The notes under the pieces: model-generated
Told to the model about the DNA's origin: nothing
Seen by the model: the letters and a program-made list of their open reading frames with translations, nothing else
Databases searched by the model: none
Assembly (NCBI RefSeq): GCF_011765465.1
Contig: NZ_CP050265.1
Span: forward strand, 620,001 to 684,000
Length of the DNA: 64,000 bases
DNA from: Erythrobacter sp.
GTDB taxonomy: Bacteria > Pseudomonadota > Alphaproteobacteria > Sphingomonadales > Sphingomonadaceae
Direction of reading: 5' to 3'
Shown here: piece after piece, positions 38,465 through 48,417 of the stretch
Numbering within the stretch: position 1 is the stretch's first letter
How the letters are laid out: each line of letters starts with the position of its first letter
Translations under genes and position numbers: made by a program

Positions 38465-38731
38465 ATGAAGCGGAAGAGGTTCTCAGAGGAGCAGATCATT
38501 GGGGTGCTGAAGGAAGCGGAGGCGGGCGCGAAGACCGCCGATCTGGCCCGGCGGCACGGGGTGTCTGAAGCGACGATCTACAACTGGAAGGCCAAGTATG
38601 GCGGGCTGGAGGTGTCCGAGGCCCGGCGGCTGCGGGAGCTCGAGAGCGAGAACGCGAAGCTCAAGCGGCTGCTGGCCGATGCGATGCTGGACAACGTGGC
38701 GTTGAAGGATCTGCTCTCAAAAAAGTGGTGA
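38465..38731 (+). CDS. IS3-family OrfA (transposase helix-turn-helix protein)
   Basis: 88 residues. A helix-turn-helix ([41 protein letters not shown]) is followed by a leucine-zipper-like coil ([27 protein letters not shown]). This is the DNA-binding half of the IS407-type transposase. The 3' end contains A6G, where a -1 frameshift can fuse it to OrfB. Confidence 0.93.
38719..38725 (+). other. programmed -1 frameshift site A_AAA_AAG
   Basis: The heptamer AAAAAAG is in the correct phase of orfA (tcA AAA AAG tgg tga), two codons before the stop. A -1 slip continues in orfB, giving the OrfAB transposase as in other IS3 elements. Confidence 0.85.
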
Positions 38732-39636
38732 CGCCCGCCGCGAAGCGAGAAGCTGCCGCACATCTCCAGGCATGTCATGGGATGAGCGAGCGGCGGGCGT
38801 GCCGTGTCATCGATGCCGATCGCAAGAGCGTGCGCTATCGTTCCATCCGGGATGATGACGGCGCGCTGCGTGAGAAGCTGCGTGAGCTGGCCAACCAGCG
38901 GCGCCGGTTCGGCTATCGCCGTTTGCATATCCTGCTGCGCCGGGAGGGCGTGATGATCAACCGCAAGAAGACCCAGCGGCTGTATCGGGAGGAAGGGCTT
39001 GCAGTGAGGCGACGACGCAGCCGCAAGCGCGCTGTCGGCACCAGAGCGCCAGCTCCGGTGCTGGCACTGCCGAACCAGCGCTGGAGCCTGGACTTTGTCC
39101 ATGACCAGATCGCTTCTGGCAGACGGTTCCGGGTGCTCAATGTGGTCGATGACATGACCAGGGAGTGCCTGGCGGCGGTGCCGGATACCTCGATCTCGGG
39201 GCACCGCGTCGTGCGCGAGCTGACCCAGCTAATCGCCCAGCGCGGCAAGCCGGGCATGATCGTTAGCGACAATGGCACCGAACTCACCAGCAATGCCGTG
39301 CTCGCATGGTGCGGCGAGATCGGGGTGGAGTGGCATTACATCGCTCCGGGCAAGCCGATGCAGAACGGCTACGTCGAGAGCTTTAACGGCCGCATGCGCG
39401 ACGAACTGCTGAACGAGACCCTGTTCCTCAGCATGGCCCACGCACGGGTCGAGATCGCTGCTTGGGTCGAGGATTACAACCGGGAGAGGCCACACTCGTC
39501 CCTTGGCTACGCAACCCCGGCGGCGTTCGCCGCCGAACTGGATAAGCAATGGCCTGCTTCGCTACGCCCTACGGGCTCCGCTACGCAGCCCATTGCTTCA
39601 ACCGCGCTGATGCGCAAAACAACCGCCCGGCTCTAA
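38725..39636 (+). CDS. IS3-family OrfB (DDE transposase catalytic domain)
   Basis: 303 residues from GTG 38725; in practice probably made as the OrfAB fusion. The integrase core (about 115-280) has the catalytic Asp in WSLDFVHDQ, the second Asp in IVSDNGTE, and the Glu in [15 protein letters not shown], so the DDE triad is complete. An HTH_21-like region ([15 protein letters not shown]) lies ahead of it. Confidence 0.93.
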
Positions 39637-43615: not shown

Positions 43616-44044
43616 ATGAAAAGATCCCTCTCCCTCATTGCCATTGCCGCCGCCACGCTCGCTTCGGGTGCCTATGCCCACGAGGTGCTCCATGCCGGGC
43701 ATGAGGACCATGCCCACGGCGCCGATTGCGGGCACATGGCGATCGAACACGCCGGCCATGTCGATTACCTGCACGACGGGCACCTCCACTTCGCGCACGG
43801 CGCGCATTTCGACGAACACGCGCTCGAAGTGTCCTCGACCAACCCGGCGGCCGAGGAACTGGCGAGCATGGTGACCACCGACGATCATATGCACGGCCAT
43901 GAGGGTGAAGAGCACGAGATGGTCCAGCACGGCGATCACATGGACTATGTCCACGATGGCCGGCTGCACTTCGTCCACGGCGATCACATGGACGATCACG
44001 GCCCCGTCGCGCTGGTCGATCCGGCGCAGCTTGCCGCGCGTTAA
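43616..44044 (+). CDS. Histidine/aspartate-rich exported repeat protein
   Basis: 142 residues. A signal peptide (MKRSLSLIAIAAATLASGAYA) is followed by a mature part with about a quarter His. Two internal repeats of about 30-40 residues share GHVDYLHDGHLHFAHGAHFDEH and GDHMDYVHDGRLHFVHGDHMDDH. One Cys is present (GADCGHM). His/Asp clusters suggest binding of Zn, Ni or Co in the periplasm (inference). RBS AAAGGA at about 43601 fixes the ATG at 43616. The stop overlaps the cfa stop on the other strand. Confidence 0.8.
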   Translation: MKRSLSLIAIAAATLASGAYAHEVLHAGHEDHAHGADCGHMAIEHAGHVDYLHDGHLHFAHGAHFDEHALEVSSTNPAAEELASMVTTDDHMHGHEGEEHEMVQHGDHMDYVHDGRLHFVHGDHMDDHGPVALVDPAQLAAR

Positions 44045-45303
44045 GACCCTGAAAGCAGGCGCTTCTCCTCCTGCGCGATCCAGTCGCGCGTGAGGGGCAG
44101 CGCATTGCGGTCGCGCACGTACTGGATCTGGTAATTGCACATGCCGCCGTGCTCGAACACGGTCGCCGCGCCCGCCAGATAGAACGTCCACATCCGGAAG
44201 AACCGCTCGTCGTGGAGCGCGACGATGGCGTCCTTGTTCGCCATGCAGTTCGCGTACCACTGGCGGATCGTCTTGGCGTAGTGGACCCGCAGCGCCTCGA
44301 CATCGGCGGCGATCAGGCGGAATTTCTCCGATGCGGCCACGGTTTCGGACAGGGCGGGGATATAGCCGCCGGGGAAGATGTATTTGCGGGTGAAGGCATC
44401 GGTCGTGCCGGGCGACCCCATCCGCCCGATCGTGTGGATCAGCATCACGCCTTGCGGGTCGAGCAGCCGGGCGCAGCATTCGAAGAAGGTGTCGAACTGG
44501 GCCTGGCCGACGTGCTCGAACATACCGACCGAAACGATCCGGTCGAAGGTCTGCCCCGACGCGGCGAAATCGCGGTAATCGACCAGCTCGATAGTGACCT
44601 GTTTCGCCACGCCCGCCTGCGCGATCCGTTTGCGCGCGAGCGCGGCCTGCTCGGATGACAGCGTGATCCCCGTCACCTCGACGTCGTAATGCTTCGCCAA
44701 GTAGATCGCCATGCCGCCCCAGCCGCAGCCGATGTCGAGCACCTTCTGCCCCGGCTGGATCTGCAGCTTGGCCGCGATATGCGCGAGCTTCGCCTCCTGC
44801 GCCTGCCCCAATGTCATGTCGGGGCCGAAATGGTCGGTGTTCCAATAGCCGCAGGAATACTGGAAATGTTCGGGATCGAGCATCAGTGCGTAGAGCGCGT
44901 TGCCGATGTCGTAGTGGTGCGCGACGTTCTTCTGCGCGCGCACCGCGTCGTTGAACCGGTCGACCGCCATCGCGGCGGTGTTTACGAGCCGCTTGGGCAG
45001 GCTCGGGCGCAGCTTGTCGCTGCCGCGCTCCCAGCGCCCGTTCATGCGGAGCAGCGAGACGAGCCCCATGACGTCGCCTTCCTCGATCACGAGGCGGGCG
45101 TCCATGAAGGCTTCGGCCGCGCCCAGTCGCGGGTCGAGCACGATGTCGCGCGGCACGGCGTCGTCGGTGAAGCGCAGCACGATCTCCGGAAAGCCGTCTG
45201 CCGCCTCGCCATAGACGCGCGCCTCGCCATCGGCGAAGACGACGCCGAGCCGCCCGCGCGTTACGGCCTTGGAGAGAAACCGGTCGAGAAGGGTCTTGCT
45301 CAT
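44041..45303 (-). CDS. cfa: Cyclopropane-fatty-acyl-phospholipid synthase family methyltransferase
   Basis: 420 residues. SAM-binding motif I is VLDIGCGWGG (188-197). Further conserved parts are HHYDIGNALYALMLDPEHFQYSCGYW before it and VSVGMFEHVG and FPGGYIP after it. It adds a methylene from SAM across double bonds of membrane phospholipid acyl chains. A related branch makes other methylated lipids, so the exact product is not certain. Start at 45303 is an ATG reading MSKTLLDRFLSKAVTRGRLG. Convergent with the His-rich gene. Confidence 0.92.
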   Translation of the reverse strand: MSKTLLDRFLSKAVTRGRLGVVFADGEARVYGEAADGFPEIVLRFTDDAVPRDIVLDPRLGAAEAFMDARLVIEEGDVMGLVSLLRMNGRWERGSDKLRPSLPKRLVNTAAMAVDRFNDAVRAQKNVAHHYDIGNALYALMLDPEHFQYSCGYWNTDHFGPDMTLGQAQEAKLAHIAAKLQIQPGQKVLDIGCGWGGMAIYLAKHYDVEVTGITLSSEQAALARKRIAQAGVAKQVTIELVDYRDFAASGQTFDRIVSVGMFEHVGQAQFDTFFECCARLLDPQGVMLIHTIGRMGSPGTTDAFTRKYIFPGGYIPALSETVAASEKFRLIAADVEALRVHYAKTIRQWYANCMANKDAIVALHDERFFRMWTFYLAGAATVFEHGGMCNYQIQYVRDRNALPLTRDWIAQEEKRLLSGS

Positions 45304-45403
45304 GCTGGCTCCCTGTTGGCCGGGGCGGTCCCGGCGAGGCGTGCGAGCGCCCAAGATGCCCCTGCTTTTGCCGCTGTCAATTCTGCGCTATCCTCTGCGC
45401 GCC

Positions 45404-45844
45404 ATGGCCGATGCGAAGATCCTGCCCAATGCGGGCTCGGTCGAGGCGTTCCTCGCCTCGGTCGAACCGCCCGCGAAGCGCGAGGACGCGCGCGCTCTCG
45501 ATGCGCTGTTCCGCCGCGTGACGGGGGAGGAGCCGGTGATGTGGGGCGCCTCGCTGATCGGTTATGGAGAATACGAGACGGTCTATGCCAGCGGGCGCGC
45601 AGTGCGCTGGATGCGGAGCGGCTTTTCGCCCCGCAAGGCCAAGCATTCGCTGCACCTGATGGCGGGCTATTCCGACCCGGAAGCGGCACGGGAACGGGCA
45701 GCGATCCTCGAACGGCTCGGCAAGCATTCCGAAGGCAAGAGCTGCCTTTACGTGAACAAGCTGGCCGACGTGGACATGGCCGTGCTGGAAGAGCTCATCG
45801 CAGCGGACTGGCGGGCGATGCAGCGGATCTATCCGCCTGCCTAG
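45404..45844 (+). CDS. DUF1801-family protein
   Basis: 146 residues. The block EPVMWGASLIGYGEYETVYASGRAVRWMRSGFSPRKAKHSLHLMAGY and the later GKSCLYVNKLADVDMAVLEELI are characteristic of DUF1801 (YdhG/YobT-like) proteins. No signal peptide, cytoplasmic, function unknown. It runs convergently to the Mo-oxidoreductase operon; its stop overlaps that of the small gene at 45841 by four bases. Confidence 0.85.
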   Translation: MADAKILPNAGSVEAFLASVEPPAKREDARALDALFRRVTGEEPVMWGASLIGYGEYETVYASGRAVRWMRSGFSPRKAKHSLHLMAGYSDPEAARERAAILERLGKHSEGKSCLYVNKLADVDMAVLEELIAADWRAMQRIYPPA

Positions 45845-46086
45845 TTCGTCCCTTCCTCATAGAGGTAGAGAGTGACTTCGCAGGGCATGGCCGTCGCCCA
45901 CGCTACCGCCTCGCTTACCGATATGCCGTCGCGCTCCTTGTAAAGCACGCTGGTTCCGGGATCGCCCGGCTCGGCCTCGTCGGCCCCTTCGACCCCGTTG
46001 TCGTGCGCCGTCGCTTCGACGATCGCCTGGATCCGTTTCCAGCGATAGGGGTGGGCACGGCGATCGATGATATTCGCGACCGTCAT
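45841..46086 (-). CDS. Small conserved-looking hypothetical protein
   Basis: 81 residues (MTVANIIDRRAHPYRWKRIQ to ..EVTLYLYEEGTN). No signal peptide or membrane segment, acidic overall. It begins two bases after the stop of the molybdopterin oxidoreductase gene and is therefore probably the last gene of that operon. Family not recognised. Confidence 0.65.
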   Translation of the reverse strand: MTVANIIDRRAHPYRWKRIQAIVEATAHDNGVEGADEAEPGDPGTSVLYKERDGISVSEAVAWATAMPCEVTLYLYEEGTN

Positions 46087-46088
46087 TC

Positions 46089-46838
46089 TCAGATCCCGGC
46101 ATACCACTGGTAATCGCCGATATCCTCCCAGAAGCCGCCCTTGCCCTCGCCGATGGAATCGAGACTGGCGACCGCCTCGATGCCGGTGAGGTACTTGGCG
46201 TGCTTGTAGCCGAGCTGCCGCTCGATCCTCATGCGCAGCGGCGCACCGTTCTTTTCGGGGATGTCCTCGCCGTTCAACTGGTGCGCGACGATGGTCTGCG
46301 GGTGATAGGCATCGACCATGTCGACGCTTTCGTAATAGCGCCGACCATAAAGCGTGTCGGCGCAGCGGAAGACGATGAAGTTGGCCTCCGGCAGCACGCG
46401 TGCGGCATCGAGCAGCGTGGAGAGCTGGGGTCCGGTCCACTCGCCGATCGCGCTCCAGCCCTCGACGCAATCGTGGCGCGTCACCTGCACCCGCTGGGGC
46501 ATGGCGCGCAGCGTCTCGAGCGAGAGCACCAGCGGATTGGCGACGAGGCCCGTGACGGTCAGCCGCCAGTCGGGAAAGCCCTTCGCCAGCTGCTCGCGAT
46601 ATTCCTCCGTGTCGACCGTGAGCGAGCCATTGCCGCGAAAGCTCGGCGAGATTTCGGAGCGGTCGAATTCGGGGGCAAGCGCCTCGCGCCCGGCGAGCGC
46701 GCGGTGGGCGGCGCGGTGCCAGCTTTCGGCGGTGTCGAAAAGCGAGGTGGCGGTCTCGCTCTCCCCGATCCGCGAACAGGCGCCCGCGCCCAGCGCGGCG
46801 AGGCCTGCGAGCAGGTGGCGGCGCTTGATTTCAGCCAT
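46089..46838 (-). CDS. Exported molybdopterin-dependent oxidoreductase (sulfite-oxidase fold, MsrP/YedY-like)
   Basis: 249 residues. The N-terminus KRRHLLAGLAALGAGAC has a twin-arginine-like RRxLL, suggesting Tat export with the cofactor inserted. The molybdenum-coordinating cysteine is C124 in RHDCVEGWSAIGEWTG, the hallmark of this family. The later GKYLTGIEAV-like segment (KHAKYLTGIEAVASL) and CADTLYGRRYYESVDM also fit. The protein ends with GGFWEDIGDYQWYAGI. It may reduce oxidised methionine or another S/N-oxide; the substrate cannot be told. Its start overlaps the cytochrome gene stop by eight bases. Confidence 0.88.
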   Translation of the reverse strand: MAEIKRRHLLAGLAALGAGACSRIGESETATSLFDTAESWHRAAHRALAGREALAPEFDRSEISPSFRGNGSLTVDTEEYREQLAKGFPDWRLTVTGLVANPLVLSLETLRAMPQRVQVTRHDCVEGWSAIGEWTGPQLSTLLDAARVLPEANFIVFRCADTLYGRRYYESVDMVDAYHPQTIVAHQLNGEDIPEKNGAPLRMRIERQLGYKHAKYLTGIEAVASLDSIGEGKGGFWEDIGDYQWYAGI

Positions 46839-47514
46839 TGCTGCGCTCCTTGCGGAAACTCGGAATGGTCATCCCCGACAGCGTCCTGATCGGCCCGGCG
46901 ACGAAGACCATGGCGACATGGACGATGACAAAACCGAGCAGGGCGAAGGCGAAGAGGAAATGGAAACTTCGCGCGCTCTGCCGCCCCCCGAACGCCTCGA
47001 CCAGCCACGGCGCGGCAGGCTCGATGCCGGGACTGATCGCAAGGCCGGTAAGCACCATGCCGGGCAGGAACACGCCGAGCACGAAGGCATAGGCGATGCG
47101 CTGGAGCGGGTTGTAGTCGGCTTTCTCCTCGCGCCGGTTCGCGCCCGTCAGGTAGCCCTTGATCGTTCCCCAGATGGCGGCAGGCGCATAGGCGCGCGGG
47201 CCCGCGGCGACATCGCGGCGGAAATGGCCATTGACGAGGATCACGATCCAGTAGGCGAGCAGGCCCAGCGCGAACACCCAGGCGGCCGTGTTGTGCCACC
47301 CGCGCGCCTCGGCGAGGTCGTAGCGGAACATCGGCAGCGTCGTCCAGCCGGGAAAGCGCATGACCTGGAGCCACGCCTCCTCGGGCGCGAAACCGTAATT
47401 GCCCCAGTAGAGCCGCCGGTGCGCGTTCGAGATCGTCAGCCCCGACATGAACAGCACGACGACCGCCGCCGCGTTCACCCAATGCCAAAGCCGGGTCGAA
47501 AGCGCGTGCCTCAT
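46831..47514 (-). CDS. Cytochrome b561-type membrane subunit partner of the Mo-oxidoreductase
   Basis: 227 residues with about five hydrophobic segments. Histidines in RLWHWVNAAAVVVLFMSGL, ARGWHNTAAWVFALGLLAYWIVI, RSFHFLFAFALLGFVIVHVAMVF are well placed to bind two b-type haems, as in the Ni-hydrogenase/cytochrome b561 family. It likely passes electrons from the quinone pool to the exported Mo protein, taking the role of MsrQ. It overlaps both neighbours (ATGA with the SDR gene upstream). Confidence 0.85.
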   Translation of the reverse strand: MRHALSTRLWHWVNAAAVVVLFMSGLTISNAHRRLYWGNYGFAPEEAWLQVMRFPGWTTLPMFRYDLAEARGWHNTAAWVFALGLLAYWIVILVNGHFRRDVAAGPRAYAPAAIWGTIKGYLTGANRREEKADYNPLQRIAYAFVLGVFLPGMVLTGLAISPGIEPAAPWLVEAFGGRQSARSFHFLFAFALLGFVIVHVAMVFVAGPIRTLSGMTIPSFRKERSNG

Positions 47515-48302
47515 GCCGCGTCCGCCCCCGCGCCTGCCTGCCCGCGCGCCTTCTCGCGGGCGAGCCAGATCACGTCGCGGTCCTGGTCGAGCAGGTGCTG
47601 GCCCGAATCGACGAAGATCGTCGAGCCGCTTCGCATCGCGCGGGTGGCGAGGAAGCGCGCCGCTGCGACGATCTCGTCCACGTCGGTCTTGCGCTCCAGC
47701 AGGTTGAGGCGGTGCGAGACTTCGGTTTCCTCCTCGCGCTGGTCGTGGCTGGCGAGGATGGCTCCGGGTGCGAGGCCGTAGACCCGGTCCTCGGCCCGGC
47801 CTGCGCCCTTCGCCAGCATCGCGATGGTGGCCGAAAGCGCGTGCTTCGACATGGTGTAGCTGAAGAAATCGGGATTGGGATTGGCGATCTTCATGTCGGT
47901 GACCTGGATCACCGTGCGCCCGGCCGCGCTTGTCGCATGGGCGAGGAAGGCCTGCGCCGTGCGCGCCGGGGCCAGCGCATTGACCTGCATCGCGCGGGCA
48001 TAGATCGCCTCGTCGGCCTCCTCGGCCCCGTCATATTCGAACAGCGAGGCCGAATTGACGAGGCAGCGCCAGTCGGGAAGCCGCGCGGCGAGCGCTTCGA
48101 CCATCGCCGTGGCCGCGCGCGTGTCCGCAAGGTCGCATTGCACCGTCTCGGCCGAGGGGAGGGCGCTGGCGAGTTCCTCGGCCGCCTCGGCCGAAGTCCC
48201 GTAATGGATCACCGCGTGCCACCCGGCCTCGCCGAACCCGGTGACGATGGCGGCGCCGATACGGGTCGCCCCTCCGATGACGAGGATCGCGGGGCGGGTC
48301 AT
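47511..48302 (-). CDS. Short-chain dehydrogenase resembling pteridine reductases (PTR1/FolM type)
   Basis: 263 residues from the ATG at 48302. The cofactor loop is VIGGATRIGAAI (8-19). The catalytic residues are D136, Y149 and K153: aspartate replaces the usual SDR serine, and the D-x12-Y-x3-K spacing equals that of PTR1 and FolM pteridine reductases. This supports a role in reducing a pterin or folate with NADPH. The stop overlaps the start of the cytochrome b561 gene, so it is the first gene of the Mo-oxidoreductase operon, a suggestive pairing with a pterin-cofactor enzyme. Confidence 0.82.
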   Translation of the reverse strand: MTRPAILVIGGATRIGAAIVTGFGEAGWHAVIHYGTSAEAAEELASALPSAETVQCDLADTRAATAMVEALAARLPDWRCLVNSASLFEYDGAEEADEAIYARAMQVNALAPARTAQAFLAHATSAAGRTVIQVTDMKIANPNPDFFSYTMSKHALSATIAMLAKGAGRAEDRVYGLAPGAILASHDQREEETEVSHRLNLLERKTDVDEIVAAARFLATRAMRSGSTIFVDSGQHLLDQDRDVIWLAREKARGQAGAGADAA

Positions 48303-48387: not shown

Positions 48388-48417
48388 GGGCCGCCGGAAC
48401 TTTCGTCCCGGCGGCCC
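48388..48417. terminator. hairpin downstream of the glycine-zipper gene
   Basis: GGGCCGCCGG (48388-48397) pairs with CCGGCGGCCC (48408-48417). It lies 21 bases beyond the stop of the minus-strand gene at 48438. No clear T-run follows on that strand, so termination strength is uncertain. Confidence 0.5.

Follow-up and report, generated by a model that had tools for sequence, protein, structure and literature searches.

The SDR-b561-Mo trio described here is a clade-specific arrangement of proteins of known kinds, a coupled set of genes whose parts nevertheless separate cleanly in evolution, and it offers a natural test of what a conserved gene order means. All three genes lie on the minus strand of the window, by which we mean the whole 64,000-nucleotide stretch of Erythrobacter sp. 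contig NZ_CP050265.1 that was analyzed. They encode an SDR of 263 aa assigned to the PruA/FolM/PTR1-type dihydropterin reductases by family, motif, and fold comparison (47511..48302), a membrane b-type cytochrome b561 (46831..47514; PF01292, 97.9 bits against a cut-off of 30.1), and a YedY/MsrP-like Mo enzyme of about 249 aa recognized by Pfam (PF00174) and by its SUOX fold (46089..46838). The SDR and b561 genes share a 4-nt ATGA stop/start overlap (47511..47514) and the b561 and Mo-enzyme genes overlap by 8 nt (46831..46838), in line with the successive overlaps that the initial annotation described. The reading we favor, and consider reasonably probable, is that these are two units on one transcript, an ordinary dihydropterin reductase and a Tat-exported, lipid-anchored SUOX-fold enzyme fed by b561. 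The upstream neighbors of the SDR are genes for a glycine-zipper protein and a probable amino-acid permease, together with a probable rlmN, and downstream of the trio are a DUF1801 gene, a cyclopropane-fatty-acid synthase-like methyltransferase (cfa; 44041..45306, minus strand), and a probable argG. We found no description of an SDR-b561-Mo cluster in the pterin-reductase, YedY/MsrPQ, or b561 literature, as judged by bibliographic entries.

Conservation of the trio was followed through class A, defined as SDRs scoring at least 248 bits (approximately 53-84% identity), whose 100 loci come from the window, from 36 further members of its genus, and from 63 genomes of the wider family, a group of marine and soil bacteria. 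The three genes are contiguous in 87 of these loci (86 of the 99 fetched plus the window), which is more than chance, and the same order appears in 36/36 named Erythrobacteraceae loci (L216-L251) among the matches listed. The spacing from SDR to b561 is exactly −4 in 62 of the 87 linked loci, and in 81 of them the b561 and Mo-enzyme genes share between 1 and 14 nt. Both parts are present in 89 class-A genomes and touch in 87, which, together with the 62 identical 4-nt overlaps, is tight for a chance neighborhood and counts against the two-unit reading; such spacing could reflect common regulation or function. A MOSC (YiiM-like) gene was considered as a constant upstream partner and rejected, being found at 53/99 loci, including 3 of the 13 unlinked ones, and absent in the window.

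The remaining 13 class-A loci, where the trio is broken, show that its parts can come apart. In two of them (L068 and L069) the Mo enzyme is elsewhere in the genome, and in 11 genomes the SDR persists with the Mo enzyme absent: G007, G015, G018, and G027, the last with a remnant, and a second set of G079, G099, G118, G120, G147, G164, and G189. In G007 and G015 the SDR runs straight into cfa, and because both are drafts (95% and 82% complete) the absence there is an absence from the locus. The SDR catalytic residues are intact in all 10 of the aligned genomes lacking the Mo enzyme, the eleventh SDR (L067) falling outside the length cut. On an SDR tree for which long frames were trimmed to their last 260 residues, these losses amount to 9 changes, at least 4 of them forced by well-supported branches. 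The converse separation is seen outside the clade, where b561-Mo has no adjacent SDR in 44/44 named non-Erythrobacteraceae loci among the matches listed, with hosts that include Sphingomonas, Sphingopyxis, Novosphingobium, Croceicoccus, and Noviherbaspirillum. There the b561-Mo-cfa block stands alone, often flanked by rlmN and argG, and the orthologous SDR of relatives adjoins folB instead (24/31 loci, or 26/31 with PF02152 coordinates). Class A forms a single clade with 100/99 support, nested among the SDRs of the order, in a tree of 36 of the 92 class-A rows meeting the length cut, 31 others, and E. coli FolM, although the great length of the E. coli FolM branch leaves the rooting of this tree unsure. 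These distributions suggest that the b561-Mo pair is the older element and that the SDR joined it in the Erythrobacteraceae clade. The simplest history would be one SDR move from folB to the b561-Mo locus: in the Erythrobacteraceae ancestor the SDR gene would have left folB and landed between rlmN and b561-Mo-cfa, and it may have been translationally coupled to b561 ever since.

The SDR itself is in all likelihood a dihydropterin reductase, as judged by motif, tree, and modeled fold. Asp136, Tyr149, and Lys153, at spacings of 13 and 4, pair with the Asp/Tyr/Lys of T. brucei PTR1 in a phmmer alignment, which bears out the PTR1 spacing claimed for it initially. These 3 residues together with R14 and F88 are each present in 93/93 aligned class-A rows, a count that omits the 7 of 100 class-A frames outside 225-300 aa. 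In PTR1 the corresponding Asp is catalytic and the corresponding Phe stacks against the pterin. R14 is the Arg of the TGX3RXG motif as defined in PMC13259868 and PMC1971073, and PMC13259868 describes this Arg as specific to pteridine reductases. The Thr of the motif (position 9) is Ile in the window's SDR and Thr in 92/93 class-A rows. By sequence, the nearest solved chains are the Brucella FolM/PruA-type structures 5tgd and 5bt9, followed by trypanosome PTR1, and the SDR profile A2 matches the Brucella structures with an E-value of 4.5e-86. The AlphaFold model (pLDDT 90.8) superposes on Brucella FolM with a TM of 0.82 at about 32% identity and on trypanosomatid PTR1 with a TM of 0.80-0.81 at about 30% identity. 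Like A. tumefaciens PruA, Brucella FolM, and E. coli FolM, the SDR has this fold, the motif Arg, and the Asp/Tyr/Lys set, occurs in one copy per genome (the next best match in the window's genome is at E 1.6e-11), and has relatives beside folB; it differs from them in its modest identity to Brucella FolM, in lying under the NCBIfam cut-offs, and in that the class-A SDR precedes b561-Mo instead of folB. It falls below every NCBIfam equivalog cut-off (PRK09134, the best model, 189/281 bits; PRK09135 112/288; FolM 77/249; PTR1 66/321.7), whereas L200, an SDR from another family of the order, clears PRK09134 at 380 bits. K138, A181, and R242 are invariant in class A and not in the SDRs of folB-linked relatives, in a comparison of 32 rows that includes one non-orthologous SDR (L099, 28% identity).

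As to substrate, PMC1971073 predicts FolM-like genes to be pteridine reductases, several of them clustered with pterin genes, and reports that the bacterial FolM-like enzymes tested were inactive on fully oxidized pterins, a difference from PTR1, with which the SDR otherwise shares catalytic set, spacing, and fold. PMC13259868 gives PruA and its Brucella homolog a common substrate profile in which dihydropterins are reduced, with dihydrofolate a poor substrate for PruA. The initial proposal of a pterin or folate reductase thus holds for the pterin half; the SDR probably does not serve mainly to reduce folate, since 60/61 relatives searched, the window's genome included, carry a standard DHFR gene. 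As the only reductase of the PruA/FolM type in the genome, the SDR would work in the cytoplasm, where it would use NADPH to turn 7,8-dihydropterins, either dihydromonapterin or dihydroneopterin, into tetrahydropterins, and phenylalanine 4-hydroxylase would be the likely main user of the product. FolB is encoded elsewhere in the window's genome. The phenylalanine-hydroxylase (PhhA) family is present in 33/37 genus genomes, including that of the window, and was not found in 4/37 that keep the SDR, one of which is listed as 100% complete. These PhhA gaps, the sub-threshold NCBIfam scores, and the Ile in TGX3RXG are counted against the two-unit reading.

The other unit pairs b561, in which His32, His74, His185, and His199 are invariant across 96 rows, with a Mo enzyme that retains a twin-Arg (R6, R7), a lipobox-like C21, and C124 in 96/96 rows. 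Cys124 aligns with the cysteine of RCVEAW in E. coli MsrP and by homology is the probable Mo ligand; alignment and fold match together give the Cys Mo ligand in a SUOX fold that defines the SUOX family. The best fold matches of the model (pLDDT 78.6, with the first 36 residues uncertain) are E. coli MsrP 1xdy and 1xdq, in agreement with the earlier description of a YedY-type enzyme. With the E. coli MsrPQ (YedY/YedZ) system it shares the SUOX fold, the Cys ligand, a Tat signal, and a two-gene unit with a membrane heme protein. Membership in MsrPQ was nevertheless rejected: the enzyme scores 83.3 bits under the MsrP model NF003767 against a cut-off of 207 (504 for the E. coli MsrP control), is 249 rather than 334 aa long, and carries the lipobox-like Cys21, and no MsrQ partner was found, its place being taken by the adjacent PF01292 b561 in 80/80 named loci among the matches listed. 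A functional resemblance is another matter. No other PF00174 protein was found in the window's genome, although further PF00174 enzymes lie away from the trio locus in other genus genomes, and a PF00174 frame of MsrP size (315-350 aa, frame length being a rough guide) was found in 0/37 genus genomes, compared with a frame of 315-381 aa in 20/24 order-level genomes from other families. This difference argues, with moderate confidence, that the b561-Mo pair may perform an MsrPQ-like reduction. In that case b561 would draw electrons from the quinol pool for a mono-molybdopterin SUOX-fold enzyme that is exported by Tat and lipid-anchored at the periplasmic face. This enzyme would most likely reduce a sulfoxide or N-oxide, possibly oxidized methionine, and so act much as MsrPQ does but with another source of electrons. 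The b561 could also run in reverse, with the Mo enzyme acting as a dehydrogenase. With at least 592 relatives in our scan, this b561-SUOX enzyme is a widespread, uncharacterized candidate for periplasmic repair or detoxification, and it occurs in a genus where an MsrP-size enzyme was not found in 37 genomes.

What, then, would hold the SDR to this pair? The initial annotation took the translational linkage as a hint that pterin supply or salvage is connected to the Mo enzyme. If the SDR supplied or salvaged pterin for molybdopterin or its repair, its coupling would be explained, and order and overlap are indeed conserved inside the clade. However, the SDR is retained in the 11 genomes without the Mo enzyme, none stands beside b561-Mo at the 44 named loci outside the clade among the matches listed, the extra PF00174 enzymes of other genus genomes are off-locus, and molybdopterin has its own route, from GTP via MoaABCDE, apart from the FolE/FolM route (PMC13259868). 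The folB neighborhood of the relatives' SDR and the position of the fourth gene outside the unit weigh on the same side. Because the MoaABCDE route is separate and the SDR and Mo enzyme are separable, supply to the Mo enzyme appears unlikely, and we leave this idea only a slim chance; the neighborhood is real, and a cofactor supply line is probably not, since the SDR and b561-Mo each occur without the other. Slimmer still is the prospect that the SDR serves the Mo protein as a pterin receptor of the PruR kind. In Agrobacterium, PruR is functionally tied to the PruA reductase in a PruA-PruR-DcpA system (PMC13259868), a PruA-type SDR adjoins the Mo protein here, and PruR structures are significant fold matches to the model, with which they share a SUOX-type core (7kom, E 2.9e-8, target TM 0.73). 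Yet PruR, as described in that paper, has Trp in place of the Mo-ligand Cys, is about 170 aa long, and has a DcpA/DTB partner, whereas the Mo protein is larger, keeps Cys124 throughout, and is partnered by b561, with no DcpA or kinase partner seen at class-A loci; identity with PruR was rejected on the retained Cys124. Because the PruA-PruR-DcpA tie exists and PruR matches the core of the model, a small place may be kept, by analogy, for a pterin-sensing or pterin-oxidizing circuit at the Mo enzyme. Were the SDR's tetrahydropterin to reach the periplasm and meet a Mo-retaining, b561-wired SUOX receptor, which strikes us as very improbable, the result would be a redox-active pterin circuit, and K138, A181, and R242 would mark the changed pterin.

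Two further explanations dispense with any meeting of the products. The genes might simply be held together by clade synteny, with overlaps that are common in compact genomes: unrelated flanks are nearly as conserved (rlmN upstream in 78/99 loci and argG downstream in 72/99, counts that are limited by locus ends), and 7/43 tandem gene pairs overlap in the window's own gene calls. Since rlmN and argG are kept with no evident tie to the trio, a conserved order says little by itself about a common function. The distances to these flanks vary widely, though, in contrast to the tight SDR-b561-Mo spacing, and we regard passive neighborhood as possible if doubtful. Alternatively, the coupling could be regulatory only, a stress-response transcript whose products never meet and which would combine membrane cyclopropane-fatty-acid synthesis, periplasmic oxide repair, and the provision of reduced pterin, whether for antioxidant or for cofactor use. 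In keeping with this, b561-Mo-cfa is an older block, and the Mo enzyme is followed by cfa, or by a small DUF1801 gene preceding cfa, in 79/86 linked loci. Against it, an EcfG-like promoter of the general-stress type was found by a simple pattern in 0/65 regions upstream of the SDR and 2/86 upstream of cfa, and a common promoter of this kind was rejected for the two genes. A purely regulatory coupling seems to us rather unlikely.

The initial annotation had extended the unit to four genes and had regarded a gene order that is not conserved as grounds against its proposal. Because SDR-b561-Mo is conserved, that objection falls away for three of the four genes; the fourth, an 81-aa ORF (P81; 45841..46086, minus strand), is not kept. 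P81 begins 2 nt past the Mo-enzyme stop, and its tail overlaps the convergent DUF1801 gene (45404..45844, plus strand). It has no Pfam or NCBIfam family at E≤0.001, and tblastn of the window proteins did not find it among the 99 fetched class-A loci. At E≤0.01 it has matches in 3/61 relatives, namely the window itself, one genus member, and one weak match of 33 residues. Membership in the unit was rejected on the lack of a match at those 99 loci and on the position of the sole clear genus homolog (56% identity), which lies on a different contig from that genome's SDR. With matches at 42-48% in 5 of 72,556 plasmid records, P81 is a real but wandering small protein.

Upstream of the SDR, a predicted dihydropterin reductase of the PruA/FolM type, 53 of 99 loci of its clade (class A) carry a gene for a YiiM-like protein with a MOSC domain, a Moco-linked family, and this gene often lies immediately 5' of either the SDR or the glycine-zipper gene (for example, L071:7879-8502). 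It is found also at loci from which the Mo enzyme has been lost, and the window's locus has no YiiM-like MOSC gene. Codon 9 of the window's SDR (48276-48278), within the pteridine-reductase motif TGX3RXG, encodes Ile, where Thr is present in 92 of 93 class-A rows. The interval that separates the SDR from the glycine-zipper gene contains an inverted repeat rich in GC (48390-48415), perhaps a terminator or operator.

In many Sphingomonadaceae, the paired genes for cytochrome b561 and the SUOX-fold Mo enzyme are followed by a CFA-synthase-like methyltransferase gene (44041-45306 in the window; L252-L295), an association that predates that with the SDR and that possibly reflects a membrane-stress theme. 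Close b561-Mo pairs occur also in 4 loci whose record titles place them outside Sphingomonadales (L281, L285, L292, and L294; Noviherbaspirillum, Burkholderiales, and Pseudomonadales), through either horizontal transfer or mislabelled bins.

Between argG and the CFA-synthase-like gene, a small His-rich protein (43736-44044) contains repeated HxH and DHM runs and, from its sequence, is perhaps metal-binding. Elsewhere in the window, 2 ORFs (38465-39636), judged by eye, look like an IS3-type transposase pair.
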